The notes under the pieces were generated by a model. That model was not told where the DNA came from and did not search any database. It saw nothing but the letters and a program-made list of their open reading frames with translations. Positions 608-9,508 of a stretch of DNA of 46,103 nt are shown one piece after another. The stretch is from Rhodovulum steppense (GTDB taxonomy: Bacteria; Pseudomonadota; Alphaproteobacteria; Rhodobacterales; Rhodobacteraceae), in the NCBI RefSeq assembly GCF_004339675.1, contig NZ_SLVM01000028.1, positions 1 to 46,103 of the forward strand, in the 5' to 3' direction. Position numbers and translations under genes: made by a program. Position 1 is the first letter of the stretch. The number at the start of each line of letters is the position of its first letter.

Positions 608-684
608 TGGCGCGGTTGACGGGGCTCGAACCCGCGACCCCCGGCGTGACAGGCCGGTACTCTAACCAACTGAGCTACAACCGC
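608..684 (-). tRNA. tRNA-Asp (GTC), distal copy
   Basis: The reverse complement folds into a full cloverleaf of 77 nt. It starts GCGGTTGTAGCTCAGTTGG, has anticodon loop CTGTCAC (anticodon GTC), a GGTTCGAGCC T-arm, a G discriminator and an encoded CCA (608-610). It is identical to the second copy 30 bp upstream in transcription. The two are presumably one transcript processed by RNase P and 3' nucleases. Confidence 0.97.
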
Positions 685-714
685 GCATTTCGCGCGAGCG
701 GATCGGACGGGCGA

Positions 715-791
715 TGGCGCGGTTGACGGGGCTCGAACCCGCGACCCCCGGCGTGACAGGCCGGTACTCTAACCAACTGAGCTACAACCGC
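715..791 (-). tRNA. tRNA-Asp (GTC), promoter-proximal copy
   Basis: This is a 77-nt cloverleaf with anticodon GTC and encoded CCA (715-717), identical base for base to the copy at 608-684. Its 5' end lies about 25 nt downstream of the start predicted from the promoter at 824-852. Confidence 0.97.
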
Positions 792-3209: not shown

Positions 3210-4313
3210 CTACAGGCTCGCGTCAAGCGCAGCCAGGATCGCGTCGCCCATGCCGCTTGTGCTGACCGGGGTGGCGCCCTCGGCCTGCATCAGGTCGGCG
3301 GTGCGCACGCCATCCGCCAGCACTTTTTCCACGGCCCGTTCCAACCGGGTCGCCTCGTCGCCCCGATCGAAGGAATAACGCAGCGCCATGGCAAAGCTGA
3401 GGATGCAGGCGCAGGGGTTGGCCTTGCCCTGACCCGCGATGTCGGGCGCGCTGCCATGCACCGGCTCGTACAGCGCCTTGGGTCGGCCATTCGCCATCGG
3501 TGCCCCCAGCGAGGCCGAGGGCAGCATCCCCAGCGAGCCGGTCAGCATCGCGGCAACATCGGACAGCAGGTCGCCGAACAGGTTGTCGGTCACGATCACG
3601 TCGAACTGCTTGGGCCAACGGCAAAGCTGCATGCCGCCCGCGTCGGCATACATGTGGGAAAGCTCGACATCCGGGTAATCCGCATCGTGGACGCGCTGCA
3701 CCACCTCGCGCCACAGGATGCCCGATTCCATCACGTTGGCCTTCTCCATCGAGCAGACCTTGTTGCCCCGCTTGCGTGCGAGTTCGAACGCCGCGCGCGC
3801 CACCCGGTCGATTTCCGACTCGGTGTAGCGCTGGGTGTTGATGCCCACCCGTTCGTCTTTCTCCTCGAAGATGCCGCGCGGTTCGCCGAAATAGACGCCC
3901 GAGGTCAGTTCCCGCACGATCATGATGTCCAGCCCCGAGACCACGTCGCGTTTCAGCGACGAGAAATCCGCCAGCGCGTCGAAGCATTGCGCGGGACGCA
4001 GGTTGGCGAACAGGTCCATCTCCTTGCGCAGGCGCAACAGGCCCCGTTCGGGTTTCACGCTGAAATCGAGCGCGTCGTATTTCGGCCCGCCCACGGCACC
4101 CAGCAGCACCGCGTCCACCTCTTGCGCCCTGGCCATCGTGGCATCCGCCAGCGGCACGCCATGCACGTCATAGGCCGCGCCGCCCACCAGATCCTCGGAA
4201 ACGTCGAATTTCAGCCCGCGACGCGCGCCGAACCAGTCGATGATGCGCGTGACCTCGGCCATCACCTCGGGGCCGATGCCGTCGCCGGGCAGGATCAGAA
4301 GGGTGTTCGTCAT
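3210..4313 (-). CDS. leuB: 3-isopropylmalate dehydrogenase
   Basis: 367-residue NAD-dependent beta-decarboxylating dehydrogenase. It catalyses the third leucine-specific step (3-isopropylmalate to 2-oxoisocaproate). Evidence is the N-terminal GDGIGPEVM (about 10-18), [14 protein letters not shown], and the Mg-binding segment [16 protein letters not shown] followed by [10 protein letters not shown]. The length is normal. The start ATG at 4311-4313 ([12 protein letters not shown]) was chosen because the longer frame upstream reads into non-conserved sequence. It is the last gene of the leuC-...-leuD-EEP-leuB operon, about 60 bp after the phosphatase-family gene. Confidence 0.96.
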
Positions 4314-4372
4314 GTGGGCCTGTCCTTGTCCTGAAGGGTCGGGATGCGGCGTAGCCGCTGGCCCTTGCCGGG

Positions 4373-5506
4373 TCAAGGCAGGCGGAGGTCGACCCAGACC
4401 AGCCGGTGGCGCGAGGCTGCCGCGACGGTGCCTGCCATCGGCCCCTCGGCGGGCCAGAATACCCCGGCCCCGGTCACGGTCAGATCGGCCGAGGGCAGAA
4501 CGTAATCCACCCGCAGATTGCCGGGGCCATCGGGCGGGGTATCGTCCCAATCGGCGGTATCCAGCGCGGGATCGCCGCGGTGGGTCGCGTTGACGCCGCC
4601 CTGAACCGCCGCCGCCCGCAAGGCGCCCTCGGACCGGGGCATGGGGTCGGTCAGCCGCGGATCGGCAAGGAACGCGCGCATCGCCTCGGACCGGCCATCG
4701 CCGTCATGGGGGTCGAGATTGGCATCGCCCAGCACCACGAAAGGCGCATCGGGCGGGGGGGCGCCGGGCAGCGCGCCGTCGAGATACAGCGTCCACAGCC
4801 GCAACTCGTCGCGATTGCGCAGCCCGTTGCGATCCTCGGCCCCGTCGAAAACGGGCGGCGTGGCGTGAAAGGCGAACAGGTGCAGCACCGTCCCGCCCAC
4901 CCGCACCGGCACGTCCCAATGCCCGGTGGTCGAAAGCCGCTGCACCGCCTGCACCTCGGTCGAGGGGAAGGGCTGGCCATCGACCACGGGCAGCGTCGCG
5001 CCGGGCAGATCGCGCCACAGAAGGTCCGAGAATTCGCGCACGCGCCCGGCCTCGACCGGGTAGCGCGAGAACAGCGCCATGCCGCCCTGTCCGGGGAAAT
5101 AGCCGAACCCCTGCGCATCGCGCGGCCCGCCCCGCCGCCCGTCGCCATCCAGATCGAGCCCGCTGCGCATGCCGGTATTGGGCTTCAGCGCGAAAAGATG
5201 CGGATAATCCAGATCGCGCGCGCGCAGCCGGTCGGCCAGCGCCCGCATGGCCAGCAGGTCCATGTCATAGTCGAAATCGAGCAGGAGCAGGATGTCGGGG
5301 CGCGTGGCGGCGATCACCTCGACCACCGCGGCAACCTGCGGGTCCTTGCCGCCCGCGATATCGGCCAGCAACAGCCCCGGCCCCTTGCGCGCAAGCCCCG
5401 AGCTATAGGCCGCGACGCGCAGATCGGCCGCTGCCGCCATCCCGGCAGCGAGCCACAGCGCCAAGGCCAGCCCGGCCGCCACCCGAAGCAGGGCGGCCGG
5501 GGTCAT
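4373..5506 (-). CDS. Secreted endonuclease/exonuclease/phosphatase-family protein
   Basis: 377-residue protein with a classical signal peptide (about residues 1-25, hydrophobic core ending AAGMAAAAD), so it should act in the periplasm. The mature part follows the EEP fold: [11 protein letters not shown] (around 70-80), [21 protein letters not shown] (the metal-binding Asn/Asp segment), RVDYVLPS, and a C-terminal [10 protein letters not shown] supplying the catalytic His. The substrate (nucleic acid, phosphodiester or lipid head group) cannot be told. The start at 5504-5506 lies 2 bp after the leuD stop, so it is cotranscribed with leuD and leuB. This arrangement recurs in Rhodobacterales from memory; no role in leucine synthesis is known to me. 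Confidence 0.82.
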
Positions 5507-5508
5507 GC

Positions 5509-6114
5509 TCAGATCCAGGGCCGTTCCTGCGCCATCCGCGCCTCGAACCCGGCGATGGCGGGGGCCTTTTCCAGCGTCAGGCCGATATCGTCCAGCCCTT
5601 CGAGCAGGCAATGCTTGCGGAACGGATCGACCTCGAAACCGATCTCGACCCCGTCCGACGTGGTGATCGTCTGGGTTTCCAGATCGACGATCATCCGCGC
5701 ATTCGCCCCCTTCTCGGCATCCTTCATCAGGACGTCGACCTGCTCCTGCGGCAGGACCACCGGAAGGATGCCGTTCTTGAAGCAGTTGTTGAAGAAGATA
5801 TCGGCAAAGCCGGGCGCCACGATGCAGCGGATGCCGAAATCCCTGATCGCCCAGGGCGCATGTTCGCGCGACGAGCCGCAGCCGAAATTGTCGCCCGCGA
5901 TCAGGATTTCCGCCTGCCGGTAGGCGGGCTGGTTCAGCACGAAATCCGCGATCTCGTTGCCCTGTTCGTCATAGCGCATCTCGTCGAAAAGGTTCACCCC
6001 CAGCCCCGTGCGCTTGATCGTCTTGAGGAACTGCTTGGGGATGATCATGTCGGTGTCGACATTGACCAAGGGCAGCGGCGCGGCGATGCCGGTGAGTTTC
6101 TCGAACTTGTCCAT
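5509..6114 (-). CDS. leuD: 3-isopropylmalate dehydratase small subunit
   Basis: 201-residue small subunit of isopropylmalate isomerase, partner of LeuC (isomerises 2- to 3-isopropylmalate). Family marks are [14 protein letters not shown] (18-30) and the substrate-recognition loop [13 protein letters not shown] (77-89). The length is standard. Its Shine-Dalgarno (AAGGAG, about 8 nt before the ATG) directly overlaps the TAA stop of the upstream DUF4276 gene. The leuD start signal therefore looks untouched by whatever separated it from leuC. Normally leuC and leuD are close neighbours; here two foreign-looking genes lie between them. Confidence 0.96.
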
Positions 6115-6126
6115 GGTTGCGTCTCC

Positions 6127-6663
6127 TTAGGCTGCGGTCAGGTCGCGGATAGCCTGGATTGTGGCGTGAAAGCTTGCGGCAGTGTTGCGGTCGGGGTTGA
6201 GATGCGGGGCGATCCGGCGCGCGCCAAGTCCCTTTTGGTATGCAGGGTCAAGTTTCCGAAGGGCATCGACCGGCCTTGCATGGCTTTCCGGGTCGCGCAG
6301 AAGAGCGGGTCGGCTGCCGGGTTTGAGGTAGCCGGCATTCTCGAGCGCCTCCGGATCGGCCAGAAACCATGCTTCGAGCTCCTGCATGACGAGGCGTATC
6401 TTTGCAGGTCTCGCGCCTCCGGCGGCCGCGATCTTTTTTAGCAAACGCTGCTTTCGGGTCCCGCAATCGCCGTTGTCGTTGTCGCGGATGACAAGAAACC
6501 GGGCAGAGGGATCGCGCCAAGCTTTGATCTTTGCTGTAAGCGATGCCTCCAGATCGCCGACCCCTTGGAAGGTGATGATCTGGAACTCGACTACTCCCAG
6601 GCGCGGCAAGATGTCGCGCAGGGTGATCTCCATCGACTCCTCTTCCGTCAGGATCACGAGCAT
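6127..6663 (-). CDS. DUF4276 family protein (putative Toprim-like nuclease partner of an ATPase)
   Basis: 178-residue protein with the hallmarks of DUF4276. These are an N-terminal strand followed by acidic EEES (7-10), a central FLVIRDNDNGDC segment (56-67) with spaced acidic residues D61, D63 and D66, and ELEAWFLADPEAL (95-107). From memory, DUF4276 is grouped with Toprim-like folds, and such proteins often accompany AAA/OLD-type ATPases in phage-defence loci. ATG at 6661-6663 was chosen because it shares its last base position with the ATPase stop (TGATG), giving translational coupling. The sequence is visibly less G+C-rich than leuC and leuD. Its role in defence is inferred from family and partner only. 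Confidence 0.8.
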   Translation of the reverse strand: MLVILTEEESMEITLRDILPRLGVVEFQIITFQGVGDLEASLTAKIKAWRDPSARFLVIRDNDNGDCGTRKQRLLKKIAAAGGARPAKIRLVMQELEAWFLADPEALENAGYLKPGSRPALLRDPESHARPVDALRKLDPAYQKGLGARRIAPHLNPDRNTAASFHATIQAIRDLTAA

Positions 6664-7874
6664 CAGGGATTGGCACCCTTGAACAGACCCTGCCGCCAGA
6701 GCCATCCCGGCTTGTCGCCCTCTTGGACGAAATCGACGAGTTGTGGATCGTCGGCCGCGCGCTGAACTTGCGTGTAACCGCCGTCCTTGCGCAGCCAGTA
6801 GATCGACCCGAGCGGAACCGCGTTCAGGAAGTCCGGCGAATGCGTGGTCACGAAGACCTGTGCCGCTCCTCGCCGCCGTTCGGCATAGGCAGCGAATTCC
6901 TCAGCCAGAAGCCCCATCAGGCTGGGGTAGAGTTGGTTCTCAGGCTCTTCAATACACAAGAGCGGATGCGGGTCGGGATCGTGGAGCAGAGCCAGATAGG
7001 CAAACATCTTGATCGTTCCGTGCGAGACAAGGCGGGCGATGAACCCGTCCGCGAAGCTCTGGTCCCTGAAACGCAGAAGCACTCGTCCATCGCCCGTGGA
7101 CTCAGGGACTACGTCTCCAATTCCGGGCACGCGCTCGGCCATGGCCTGCACGATCTCGGCGTAAACCCCGGAGTGATACTCACGCAAATACTGGGCGTAG
7201 AGCGCCAGGTTGTCCCCAGAGGGGCTGAGATGCTCGGCGGGCGCCACATCCGGCTCGCGTCGGGCCTCGGTGATATGGAAATCGCTGACCGTCCAGTTCT
7301 CTATCAGGTCTCGCAACTGGCTTGCTGCATCGAACCGGCGGAACTGGCCAAGTCCCTTGAGGGCCAGAAGGTCGGGCCGGTCCAGCGCCTGTTCCTCGCG
7401 CATAAGGTCGGCATCCTTCACCTCGGTGTCGAAGGCATCGAAGCTCTCGGCAATGGCAACGCCTTGCCCGCGATGGAAGTCGATGAAGTGGAACGGCCGA
7501 CCGTAACTGCCGCGTTTCCAGTGCAGAAGCTCGCGCTCGACCACGACCTTCGGACCATCCGCGGCGAACTCGACCGCGTAGGTAACTATGCGACGCTTGT
7601 CCTCGCTGCGGAAATCCAGATCGATCTTGAGCTCGATCAGGATCGTCTCGGCCTCTCCAGCCCCGCTTGAACGAACCTGGCGAAAGCCCCCGCGCCGGTC
7701 GAAGGCGGCGCGGGCATTGTCCTTAAGGCAATCCTTGAGGAAACTGAAAACGTCGATCAAGGTGGACTTGCCGGTACCGTTGGCACCGACAAAGACTACA
7801 AACCCCGGCATGTCGCGGATATCGACATCCCGCAACGCCTTGAAGTTCTTCACCCTGATCGACTGGACCCGCAT
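6663..7874 (-). CDS. AAA (AAA_15/AAA_21, OLD-like) ATPase embedded in the leu operon
   Basis: 403-residue ABC/SMC-class ATPase with the N-terminal start IRVKNFKALRDVDI typical of AAA_15/21 and RecF-like proteins. Walker A is GANGTGKST (30-38). A signature-like SHGTIKMFAYLALL comes later, followed by Walker B LLCIEEPENQLYPS and the His-switch FVTTHSPDFL. There is no nuclease domain of its own; the nuclease-like function probably lies in the adjoining DUF4276 protein. The start ATG (7872-7874) overlaps the leuC stop as TGATG, and the stop overlaps the DUF4276 start in the same way. Composition is lower in G+C than leuC. An ATPase plus Toprim-like pair is the layout of systems such as PARIS or AbiL-type modules, but this is not an identification with either. 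Confidence 0.85.
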   Translation of the reverse strand: MRVQSIRVKNFKALRDVDIRDMPGFVVFVGANGTGKSTLIDVFSFLKDCLKDNARAAFDRRGGFRQVRSSGAGEAETILIELKIDLDFRSEDKRRIVTYAVEFAADGPKVVVERELLHWKRGSYGRPFHFIDFHRGQGVAIAESFDAFDTEVKDADLMREEQALDRPDLLALKGLGQFRRFDAASQLRDLIENWTVSDFHITEARREPDVAPAEHLSPSGDNLALYAQYLREYHSGVYAEIVQAMAERVPGIGDVVPESTGDGRVLLRFRDQSFADGFIARLVSHGTIKMFAYLALLHDPDPHPLLCIEEPENQLYPSLMGLLAEEFAAYAERRRGAAQVFVTTHSPDFLNAVPLGSIYWLRKDGGYTQVQRAADDPQLVDFVQEGDKPGWLWRQGLFKGANP

Positions 7875-9292
7875 CAGACCGTTTCCGCCACGAATTCACG
7901 CACATCCGTCAGATGGCCGGTCACCGCCGCTGCGGCCGCCATGACCGGGCTCATCAGGTGGGTGCGGCCGCCGCGGCCCATGCGGCCCTCGAAATTGCGG
8001 TTCGAGGTGGCGGCGCAGCGCTCGCCGGGGGCAAGCTGGTCGGGGTTCATGCCGAGGCACATCGAACAGCCCGCAAGGCGCCATTCGAAACCGGCCTCCT
8101 TGAAGACGGTATCCAGCCCCTCCTCCTCGGCCTGCGCGCGCACCAGACCCGAGCCCGGCACCACCATGCCGCGCACGCCCGGGGCCAGCTTTCGGCCGCG
8201 CAGGATGTCGGCCGCGGCGCGCAGATCCTCGATCCGGCCATTGGTGCAGGACCCGATGAAGACGGCATCCACCTTGATATCGGTCAGCTTCATCCCCGGC
8301 GTCAGGCCCATGTAGTCGAGCGAGCGGCGCGCGGCCTCGACCTTGCCGCCCTGGAACTCCGAAGGGTTCGGCACCTGGCCGGTGATCGGCAGCACGTCCT
8401 CGGGCGAGGTGCCCCAGGTCACGACGGGGGCGATATCCTCGGCGCGGATCGTCACCACCTTGTCCCAATGCGCGTCATCGTCGGAGTAAAGCGTCTTCCA
8501 CCACGACAGCGCCGCTTCCCATTGCGCGCCCTTGGGCGCATGCGGGCGGCCCATCACATAGGCAAAGGTCTTTTCGTCGGGCGCGATCAGCCCCGCCCGC
8601 GCGCCGCCCTCGATCGCCATGTTGCAGACCGTCATCCGGCCTTCCATCGACAGATCGCGGATCGCCTGCCCGCAATACTCGATCACATAGCCCGTGCCGC
8701 CCGCCGTGCCGGTCAGGCCGATCACCGCCAGCGTGATGTCCTTGGCCGTAACGCCCGGCAGCAATTTCCCGGTGATCTCGACCTTCATGTTCTTGGATTT
8801 CTTCTGGATCAGCGTCTGGGTGGCCAGGACGTGTTCCACCTCGGAGGTGCCGATGCCATGCGCCAGCGCGCCAAAGGCGCCATGGGTGGCGGTGTGGCTG
8901 TCGCCACAGACCACGGTCATGCCCGGCAGCGTCCAGCCCTGTTCCGGGCCGACGATATGGACGATGCCCTGCCGGATGTCGGTCACGGGGTAGTAATGGA
9001 TGCCGAATTCGCGCGCGTTGCGGTCCAGCGCCTCGACCTGGATGCGGCTTTCCTCGGTCATGTTGGCGGTGTTCTCGCGGCCCTCGGTGGTGGGCACGTT
9101 ATGGTCGGGCACCGCGATGGTCTTGTCGGGCGCATGCACCTTGCGGCCCGACATGCGCAGCCCCTCGAAGGCCTGCGGGCTCGTCACCTCATGCACGAGG
9201 TGACGGTCGATATAGAGAAGGCAGGTGCCGTCCTCGGCCTGGTCGACCAGGTGGGCATCCCAGATCTTGTCGTAAAGCGTCTTGCCGGTCAT
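7874..9292 (-). CDS. leuC: 3-isopropylmalate dehydratase large subunit
   Basis: 472-residue aconitase-family [4Fe-4S] subunit that pairs with LeuD. The cluster ligands are visible as C349 (IGSCTNGR), C409 and C412 ([10 protein letters not shown]). Other marks are [15 protein letters not shown] near 130 and the C-terminal [13 protein letters not shown]. The length is normal. It heads the minus-strand leu operon. Its TGA is fused to the ATG of the following ATPase, so any ribosome finishing leuC is placed to reinitiate on the accessory gene. Confidence 0.97.
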
Positions 9293-9346
9293 GGAACTCT
9301 CCGCGGCTATTCGTTCGGAAATGGCGAAACGGGATGACGGCCCGGC

Positions 9347-9508
9347 TCAGGGGCGGGCCAGAACGGAATGGGCCGCGCCATAGAACCGCCAGGGCAGGCG
9401 CGCGCGGTCGTCCATGTCGAAGATGCGTTTCATGCCCGACCAGATACGCCGTTCCGCGCCGCCGATCAAGGGCAGGCCCGCCTTGCGCGGAACCCCGGCC
9501 GCGCCCAT
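9347..9508 (-). CDS. Possible 53-residue conserved small protein
   Basis: A short frame upstream of leuC encodes a peptide with balanced, protein-like composition and many aromatic and basic residues (AERRIWSGMKRIFDMDD, then LPWRFYGAAHSVLARP). It is not a simple shadow, since no other gene covers this interval. No good Shine-Dalgarno precedes its ATG (9506-9508). It lies in the 5' region of the leu operon and could be cotranscribed with it. There is no run of leucines, so it is not a classical leu attenuator peptide. Function unknown. Confidence 0.4.
   Translation of the reverse strand: MGAAGVPRKAGLPLIGGAERRIWSGMKRIFDMDDRARLPWRFYGAAHSVLARP

Follow-up and report, generated by a model that had tools for sequence, protein, structure and literature searches.

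A HEC-01 candidate defence pair between leuC and leuD in the leucine operon of Rhodovulum steppense

Two HEC-01 genes inside the leucine operon

In a 46,103-nucleotide (nt) stretch of Rhodovulum steppense DNA (assembly GCF_004339675.1, contig NZ_SLVM01000028.1; hereafter the window), we found that an ATPase gene and a DUF4276 gene lie between leuC and leuD, which encode the large and small subunits of isopropylmalate isomerase. Judged by sequence profiles, this pair is HEC-01 (Hma-embedded candidate 01), a candidate defence family already catalogued by PADLOC, at a new address. It is likely, in our view, that the insert is an OLD-type nuclease carried in two genes, an ABC-type ATPase with a separately encoded OLD-like Toprim nuclease, acting through the steps proposed below. 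A first-pass annotation of the sequence had suggested an ATPase-plus-Toprim pair of defence type, and this suggestion gained from the predicted Toprim fold, the HEC-01 matches of both proteins, and their patchy occurrence in relatives. Of the two outcomes named in advance as fatal to it, near-universal presence in relatives with vertical descent and a metabolic role, or a DUF4276 model lacking a Toprim-like fold, neither came about.

Both proteins match the HEC-01 models over nearly their full length. The ATPase (positions 6663–7874, minus strand; 403 aa) scored 548 bits against PDLC04144, labelled HEC-01B, with residues 1–403 aligned to profile positions 1–394 of 395, while the DUF4276 protein (6127–6663, minus strand; 178 aa) scored 129 bits against PDLC04143, labelled HEC-01A, over residues 2–176. 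Pfam assigns the former to AAA_21 (100.5 bits) and AAA_15 (79.2 bits), ATPases of the ABC/OLD type, and the latter to DUF4276 (47.7 bits, cut-off 30.2). The ABC-type motifs of the ATPase are intact in the alignment and in the predicted structure (predicted local distance difference test score, pLDDT, 91.8); G30, N32, G33, G35, and K36 of the Walker A region, C307–Q314 (CIEEPENQ), and H345 are invariant in a 55-row alignment. In the NCBIfam scan, the DUF4276 protein matched no family, and a MAD3 match was rejected because its 103.7 bits fell short of the cut-off, 420.

A glutamate together with a DxD motif is the signature of Toprim domains. A Toprim-like fold, with fold matches, was predicted for the DUF4276 protein with high confidence, in agreement with the first-pass annotation, which had expected such a fold for the family. 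E7, D61, D63, and E97 are invariant in a 68-row alignment, and the first three would, from the alignment, be the acidic E and DxD of the Toprim fold. DUF4276 thus moves from unknown to an OLD-like Toprim by predicted fold, a predicted nuclease, which gives HEC-01 residues to mutate.

The pair had also been likened to PARIS or AbiL; its sequence profiles point to HEC-01 instead. PARIS (AriA/AriB, the ‘class 4’ split OLD) was rejected on gene layout and on the partner, for which no AriB emerged at profile level: the DUF4276 protein had 16 PADLOC matches (E-values up to 1), all to HEC-01, with the AriAB fusion model present in the library and not among them. The ATPase scored 97 bits to an AriA model, far less than its 548 to HEC-01. 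AbiL likewise pairs an AAA_15-type ATPase with a small partner encoded after it; here the ATPase reached only 74 bits against AbiLi, and the DUF4276 protein had no Abi match in a library not checked for an AbiLii model. OLD nucleases of classes 1–3, including GajA, are single polypeptides, whereas the ATPase and Toprim parts here are on two genes; with leuC and leuD as neighbours rather than the GajB helicase, Gabija was rejected as well. The pair shares with HEC-01 its gene order, ATPase then DUF4276, which is found in many phyla, the two genes overlapping in 43 of the 69 pairs measured (script-chosen start codons), and differs in sitting in the leucine operon and in forming a distinct clade, whose ATPases share at most 56% identity with the others in the retained loci.

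HECs are recognised through guilt by embedding, and several of them, including HEC-06, are active; HEC-01 is not named in the available part of that text (PMC12988326). HEC-01 may habitually sit inside operons, in keeping with this recognition by embedding. A table in the available part of another paper lists HEC with an unknown mechanism (PMC10855318). In the open-licence literature, where absence is a weak sign, we found no text on DUF4276, none joining HEC-01 with PADLOC, and none combining leuC, leuD, and ‘antiphage defense’, and the matches listed for ‘HEC-01’ as a name were all on unrelated subjects. The first-pass annotation knew of no description of the arrangement, and none was found in this literature; as far as our searches go, the fixed core-operon address in six genomes and the recognition of leuC–leuD as a cargo slot are new.

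The gene order on the minus strand is leuC, ATPase, DUF4276, leuD, an endonuclease/exonuclease/phosphatase-family gene, and leuB. Coordinates and Pfam matches (Aconitase, AAA_21, AAA_15, DUF4276, and Aconitase_C) bear out the placement between leuC (7874–9292, minus strand; Aconitase, 604 bits) and leuD (5509–6114, minus strand; Aconitase_C), and the junctions are as exact as first described. The leuC TGA overlaps the ATPase ATG as TGATG, and the ATPase TGA overlaps in the same way the ATG of the adjacent, co-directional DUF4276 gene at 6663, whose longest open reading frame (ORF) begins 42 nt earlier, at 6705. The DUF4276 TAA directly adjoins GGAGACGCAACC-ATG of leuD, i.e., a 12-nt spacer (6115–6126, minus strand) that contains the leuD ribosome-binding site. 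The ATPase is single-copy in the genome (whole-genome search, E ≤ 0.001). The claim that the pair is less G+C-rich than its hosts stands against leuC (66.9%, compared with 61.3% for the ATPase and 60.9% for DUF4276) and in third positions (0.75 and 0.70, versus 0.88 in leuC and 0.87 in leuD), and does not stand against leuD overall (61.6%).

Six copies at one address and an empty site in the genus

The pair is far from universal in relatives. In draws of whole genomes, scoring up to four candidates per genome at E ≤ 1e-60, a setting that distant HEC-01 copies may escape, we found the ATPase in 4 of 394 genomes of the family and in 1 of 390 genomes of the order. A draw of 16 genus genomes likewise gave one with the ATPase, and the single genus and order occurrences are the window’s own. 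In each of the four family genomes (G000, G124 with L002/L199, G131 with L003, and G093 with L200) the pair sits between leuC and leuD, and relatives L004 and L005 bring the copies at this address to six. Their sources range from metagenome-assembled genomes (MAGs; L002–L005) to a single-contig genome (G093) and one rated 99.98% complete (G000).

The six copies form one clade, with a Shimodaira–Hasegawa-like approximate likelihood ratio (SH-aLRT) support of 100 against 72 others in a quick tree. In a scan of GTDB-species genomes, from which the best 80 of 126 loci were kept, leuC and leuD flank only the four Rhodobacteraceae-type loci. The DUF4276 partner was recognisable in 76 of the 80, and two of the other four end soon after the ATPase. 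A separate arrangement was seen in L038 (1211–4597), where two HEC-01-type ATPases stand in tandem with no recognised DUF4276 gene in the stretch. Two phage records hold ATPase relatives and seven plasmid records hold DUF4276-protein relatives, all below 60% identity, and nine relatives in viral contigs are at most 54% identical. In five of the six copies the leuC stop and the ATPase ATG overlap; in L004 they are directly adjacent. The spacer between the DUF4276 stop and leuD measures 187 nt in L003 and 12, 3, 9, 13, and 15 nt in the others.

The nearest congener, G406, has a leuC protein 99% identical to that of the window, with 96–98% identity in the DNA around leuC, and carries an empty site that reads TGA-GGAGACGCAACC-ATG, with the same 12-nt spacer. 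In the window, the leuC TGA is followed by the insert, which ends in TAA, and then by the same GGAGACGCAACC-ATG. Edge mismatches between the two genomes are 0–2 per 100 bases on both sides, and neither this comparison nor a repeat search revealed a target duplication or terminal repeats. Relative to the empty site of G406, the insertion is base-exact and scarless. A transposon or gene cassette was rejected, as the insert is without target duplication, terminal repeats, or recombinase gene.

Across the 16 genomes of the genus, the leuC–leuD gap is a 12-nt spacer in seven, holds a DUF308 protein in four (by Pfam in L203, which the other three match at 88–97% identity) and exported VPLPA-type proteins in four (by our reading of the C-terminal motif), and holds HEC-01 in one. 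The exported proteins, in congeners L196, L197, L201, and L202, differ between species.

The leuC–leuD gap as a cargo site

The first-pass annotation took leuC and leuD to be normally adjacent, which fails in this family. Among 140 measured family genomes, the interval is below 150 nt in 64, between 150 and 300 nt in 4, and at least 300 nt in 72, mostly with ordinary genes, and it extends to 13 kb in L130. The sample derives from the best 150 matches each of leuC and leuD in 248 genomes, of which 107 appear in both sets and 101 have both genes on one contig and strand; the other 49 of the 150 leuC genomes were also examined, and 10 without leuD within about 7 kb were left out. The leuC–leuD gap is thus a permissive, general cargo site in the family and no defence island, so that the HEC-01 pair is no isolated intrusion into an otherwise constant operon. 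This matters for the annotation of these operons in the family.

The most frequent cargo is a DUF308 membrane protein, which we take to be HdeD-like. ORFs were called in 74 loci, five of them HEC-01 loci, and the DUF308 protein occurs in 30. Other cargo includes HupE/UreJ proteins, glycosyltransferases, small exported proteins, a major facilitator superfamily (MFS) protein, and a phosphate transporter. A second recurrent cargo, in four genomes (L124, L126, L127, and L129), sets a HupE/UreJ-like gene and a DUF4198-type gene (by member counts) side by side on opposite strands; L128 has the HupE/UreJ-like family. In L166 (291–2129), the gap holds a row of four small ORFs of exported type, all related (cluster 1), as if locally duplicated.

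A defence hot spot at leuC–leuD is unsupported. No match to PADLOC at 1e-5 was found among 77 other cargo proteins (aligned out of 79 listed), a set of crude ORF calls, some probably spurious, that omits ORFs below 90 aa and the five HEC-01 loci and includes one of the 30 DUF308-type ORFs, and HEC-01 is the sole PADLOC-type tenant seen there. In the Pfam scan of the cargo, with 25 of 43 families among the matches listed, one protein of alignment A3 matches Nmad3, nucleotide modification associated, at 5e-55 and may be a second tenant of conflict type. Three others have weak ‘GT4-conflict’ matches, the best at 4e-7; by these matches, such cargo may have a role in conflict.

Proposed mechanism, origin, and alternative readings

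In the mechanism that we propose, the ATPase and the Toprim protein would form a complex in which the ATPase would sense infection or abnormal DNA and license the Toprim subunit to cut nucleic acid, by analogy with OLD and PARIS. The leu promoter would drive transcription of the pair, and the TGATG overlaps would couple ATPase translation to that of leuC and nuclease translation to that of the ATPase, while leuD would retain its own ribosome-binding site. The gap is a permissive slot in the family, presumably tolerated because inserts leave leuD expressed. Allelic exchange in the leu flanks, with a donor carrying leuC–ATPase–nuclease–leuD, would have brought the pair into the window’s species recently. 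In its simplest form, this history is a long tenancy of leuC–leuD with rare spread through leu-allele recombination.

Several observations weigh against reading the pair as a two-gene defence nuclease that arrived in this way. No antiphage assay of HEC-01 was found in the open-licence literature, and OLD-family proteins can have non-defence roles, as with Cran1 in the available part of PMC12796447. The DUF4276 alignment found no match when searched by sequence profile against the PDB, so the Toprim link is drawn from the fold. The other cargo is mostly non-defence, and the place therefore speaks neither for nor against defence. The 187-nt spacer of L003 means that the downstream junction is not uniformly tight. 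No donor-like tract was detected at the insert edges against G406; the donor must therefore have had nearly identical leu flanks, i.e., be a close, unsampled relative, and none was found. Counts in the promoter and terminator scan were no higher than in shuffles, which makes it uninformative; a scan of 5400–9500 gave no sigma-70-like promoter, which says little about leucine-linked expression because shuffles average only 0.8.

The strongest alternative, though still unlikely, concerns history: the pair may be an ancient vertical resident that entered once in the family ancestor, was lost in almost all lineages, and was kept in the window’s species. One clade at one address would fit this account, as would the ratio of nonsynonymous distances (dN) of ATPase to leuC, which is 2.2–2.9 in all six pairs among L003, L004, L005, and L200, as if the genes had diverged together. 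However, only 1 of 16 genus genomes is occupied and the other 15 are in three states, which would demand many losses, each with a clean junction. The window–L199 pair also breaks the pattern, with an ATPase dN of 0.092 and a leuC dN of 0.127 (ratio 0.72), compared with 2.0–3.3 in 14 other pairs. Passage of the pair between these two lineages after their leu genes parted is only suggestive, because the synonymous distance of the ATPase (1.14) exceeds that of leuC (0.58). Between the window and L199, dN/dS is 0.08 and 0.14 for the two insert genes, both of which are therefore under purifying selection.

A second alternative, which we consider improbable, is that the pair serves housekeeping, in DNA repair or a leucine-linked function, with no antiviral role. 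Its appeal comes from the reported cell-cycle function of the OLD-type Cran1 (PMC12796447, available part) and from loci elsewhere. Among seven loci whose surroundings were examined, HEC-01 is flanked in a Saprospiraceae MAG (L009, 628–5302) by genes for an enoyl-CoA hydratase and a dehydrogenase E1/transketolase, and it follows a Trp-dioxygenase-like gene in L039 and Maf in L008. The pair is, however, rare and patchy in the family and spread across many phyla; in two more of the seven loci it follows a type I specificity gene (L058) or lies upstream of a Swt1-like HEPN gene (L019), and among 56 close co-directional neighbours outside the family (hand-picked from 213 listed, with no control set), single genes match type I specificity, type III methyltransferase, Zorya, Hma, and McrBC models, while others are metabolic.

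Targeted insertion between the leuC stop and the leuD ribosome-binding site by an unknown process, with no leu-allele recombination, is very improbable: the scarless edges, the lack of a donor tract against G406, and the same upstream junction in six copies favour it, but the insert has no recombinase gene, target duplication, or terminal repeat, the downstream spacers vary from 3 to 187 nt, and allelic exchange gives identical geometry without new machinery.

Returning to the proposed two-gene nuclease, we put forward tentatively, as possible rather than probable, that it belongs to a split OLD-type defence lineage that keeps a fixed core-operon address and moves as an operon allele, recombining through leuC and leuD and switched by the leu promoter. 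If so, immunity would be put to use and passed on together with branched-chain amino-acid synthesis, not through a defence island or mobile element. Here a candidate defence pair without mobile-element marks occupies one core-operon address across several genera, with clean empty and occupied close relatives, which makes the spread of defence genes by ordinary core-gene recombination directly testable.

Downstream of leuD on the minus strand, the run continues with the endonuclease/exonuclease/phosphatase-family gene (4373–5506; Pfam Exo_endo_phos), which has an ATG at its listed start, and with leuB (stretch scanned 3210–4316; Iso_dh, 441 bits). An Rfam scan of the window gave three tRNAs and no other family; two of the tRNA genes, near the window start (611–791, minus strand), have the same Rfam score and start 107 bases apart.
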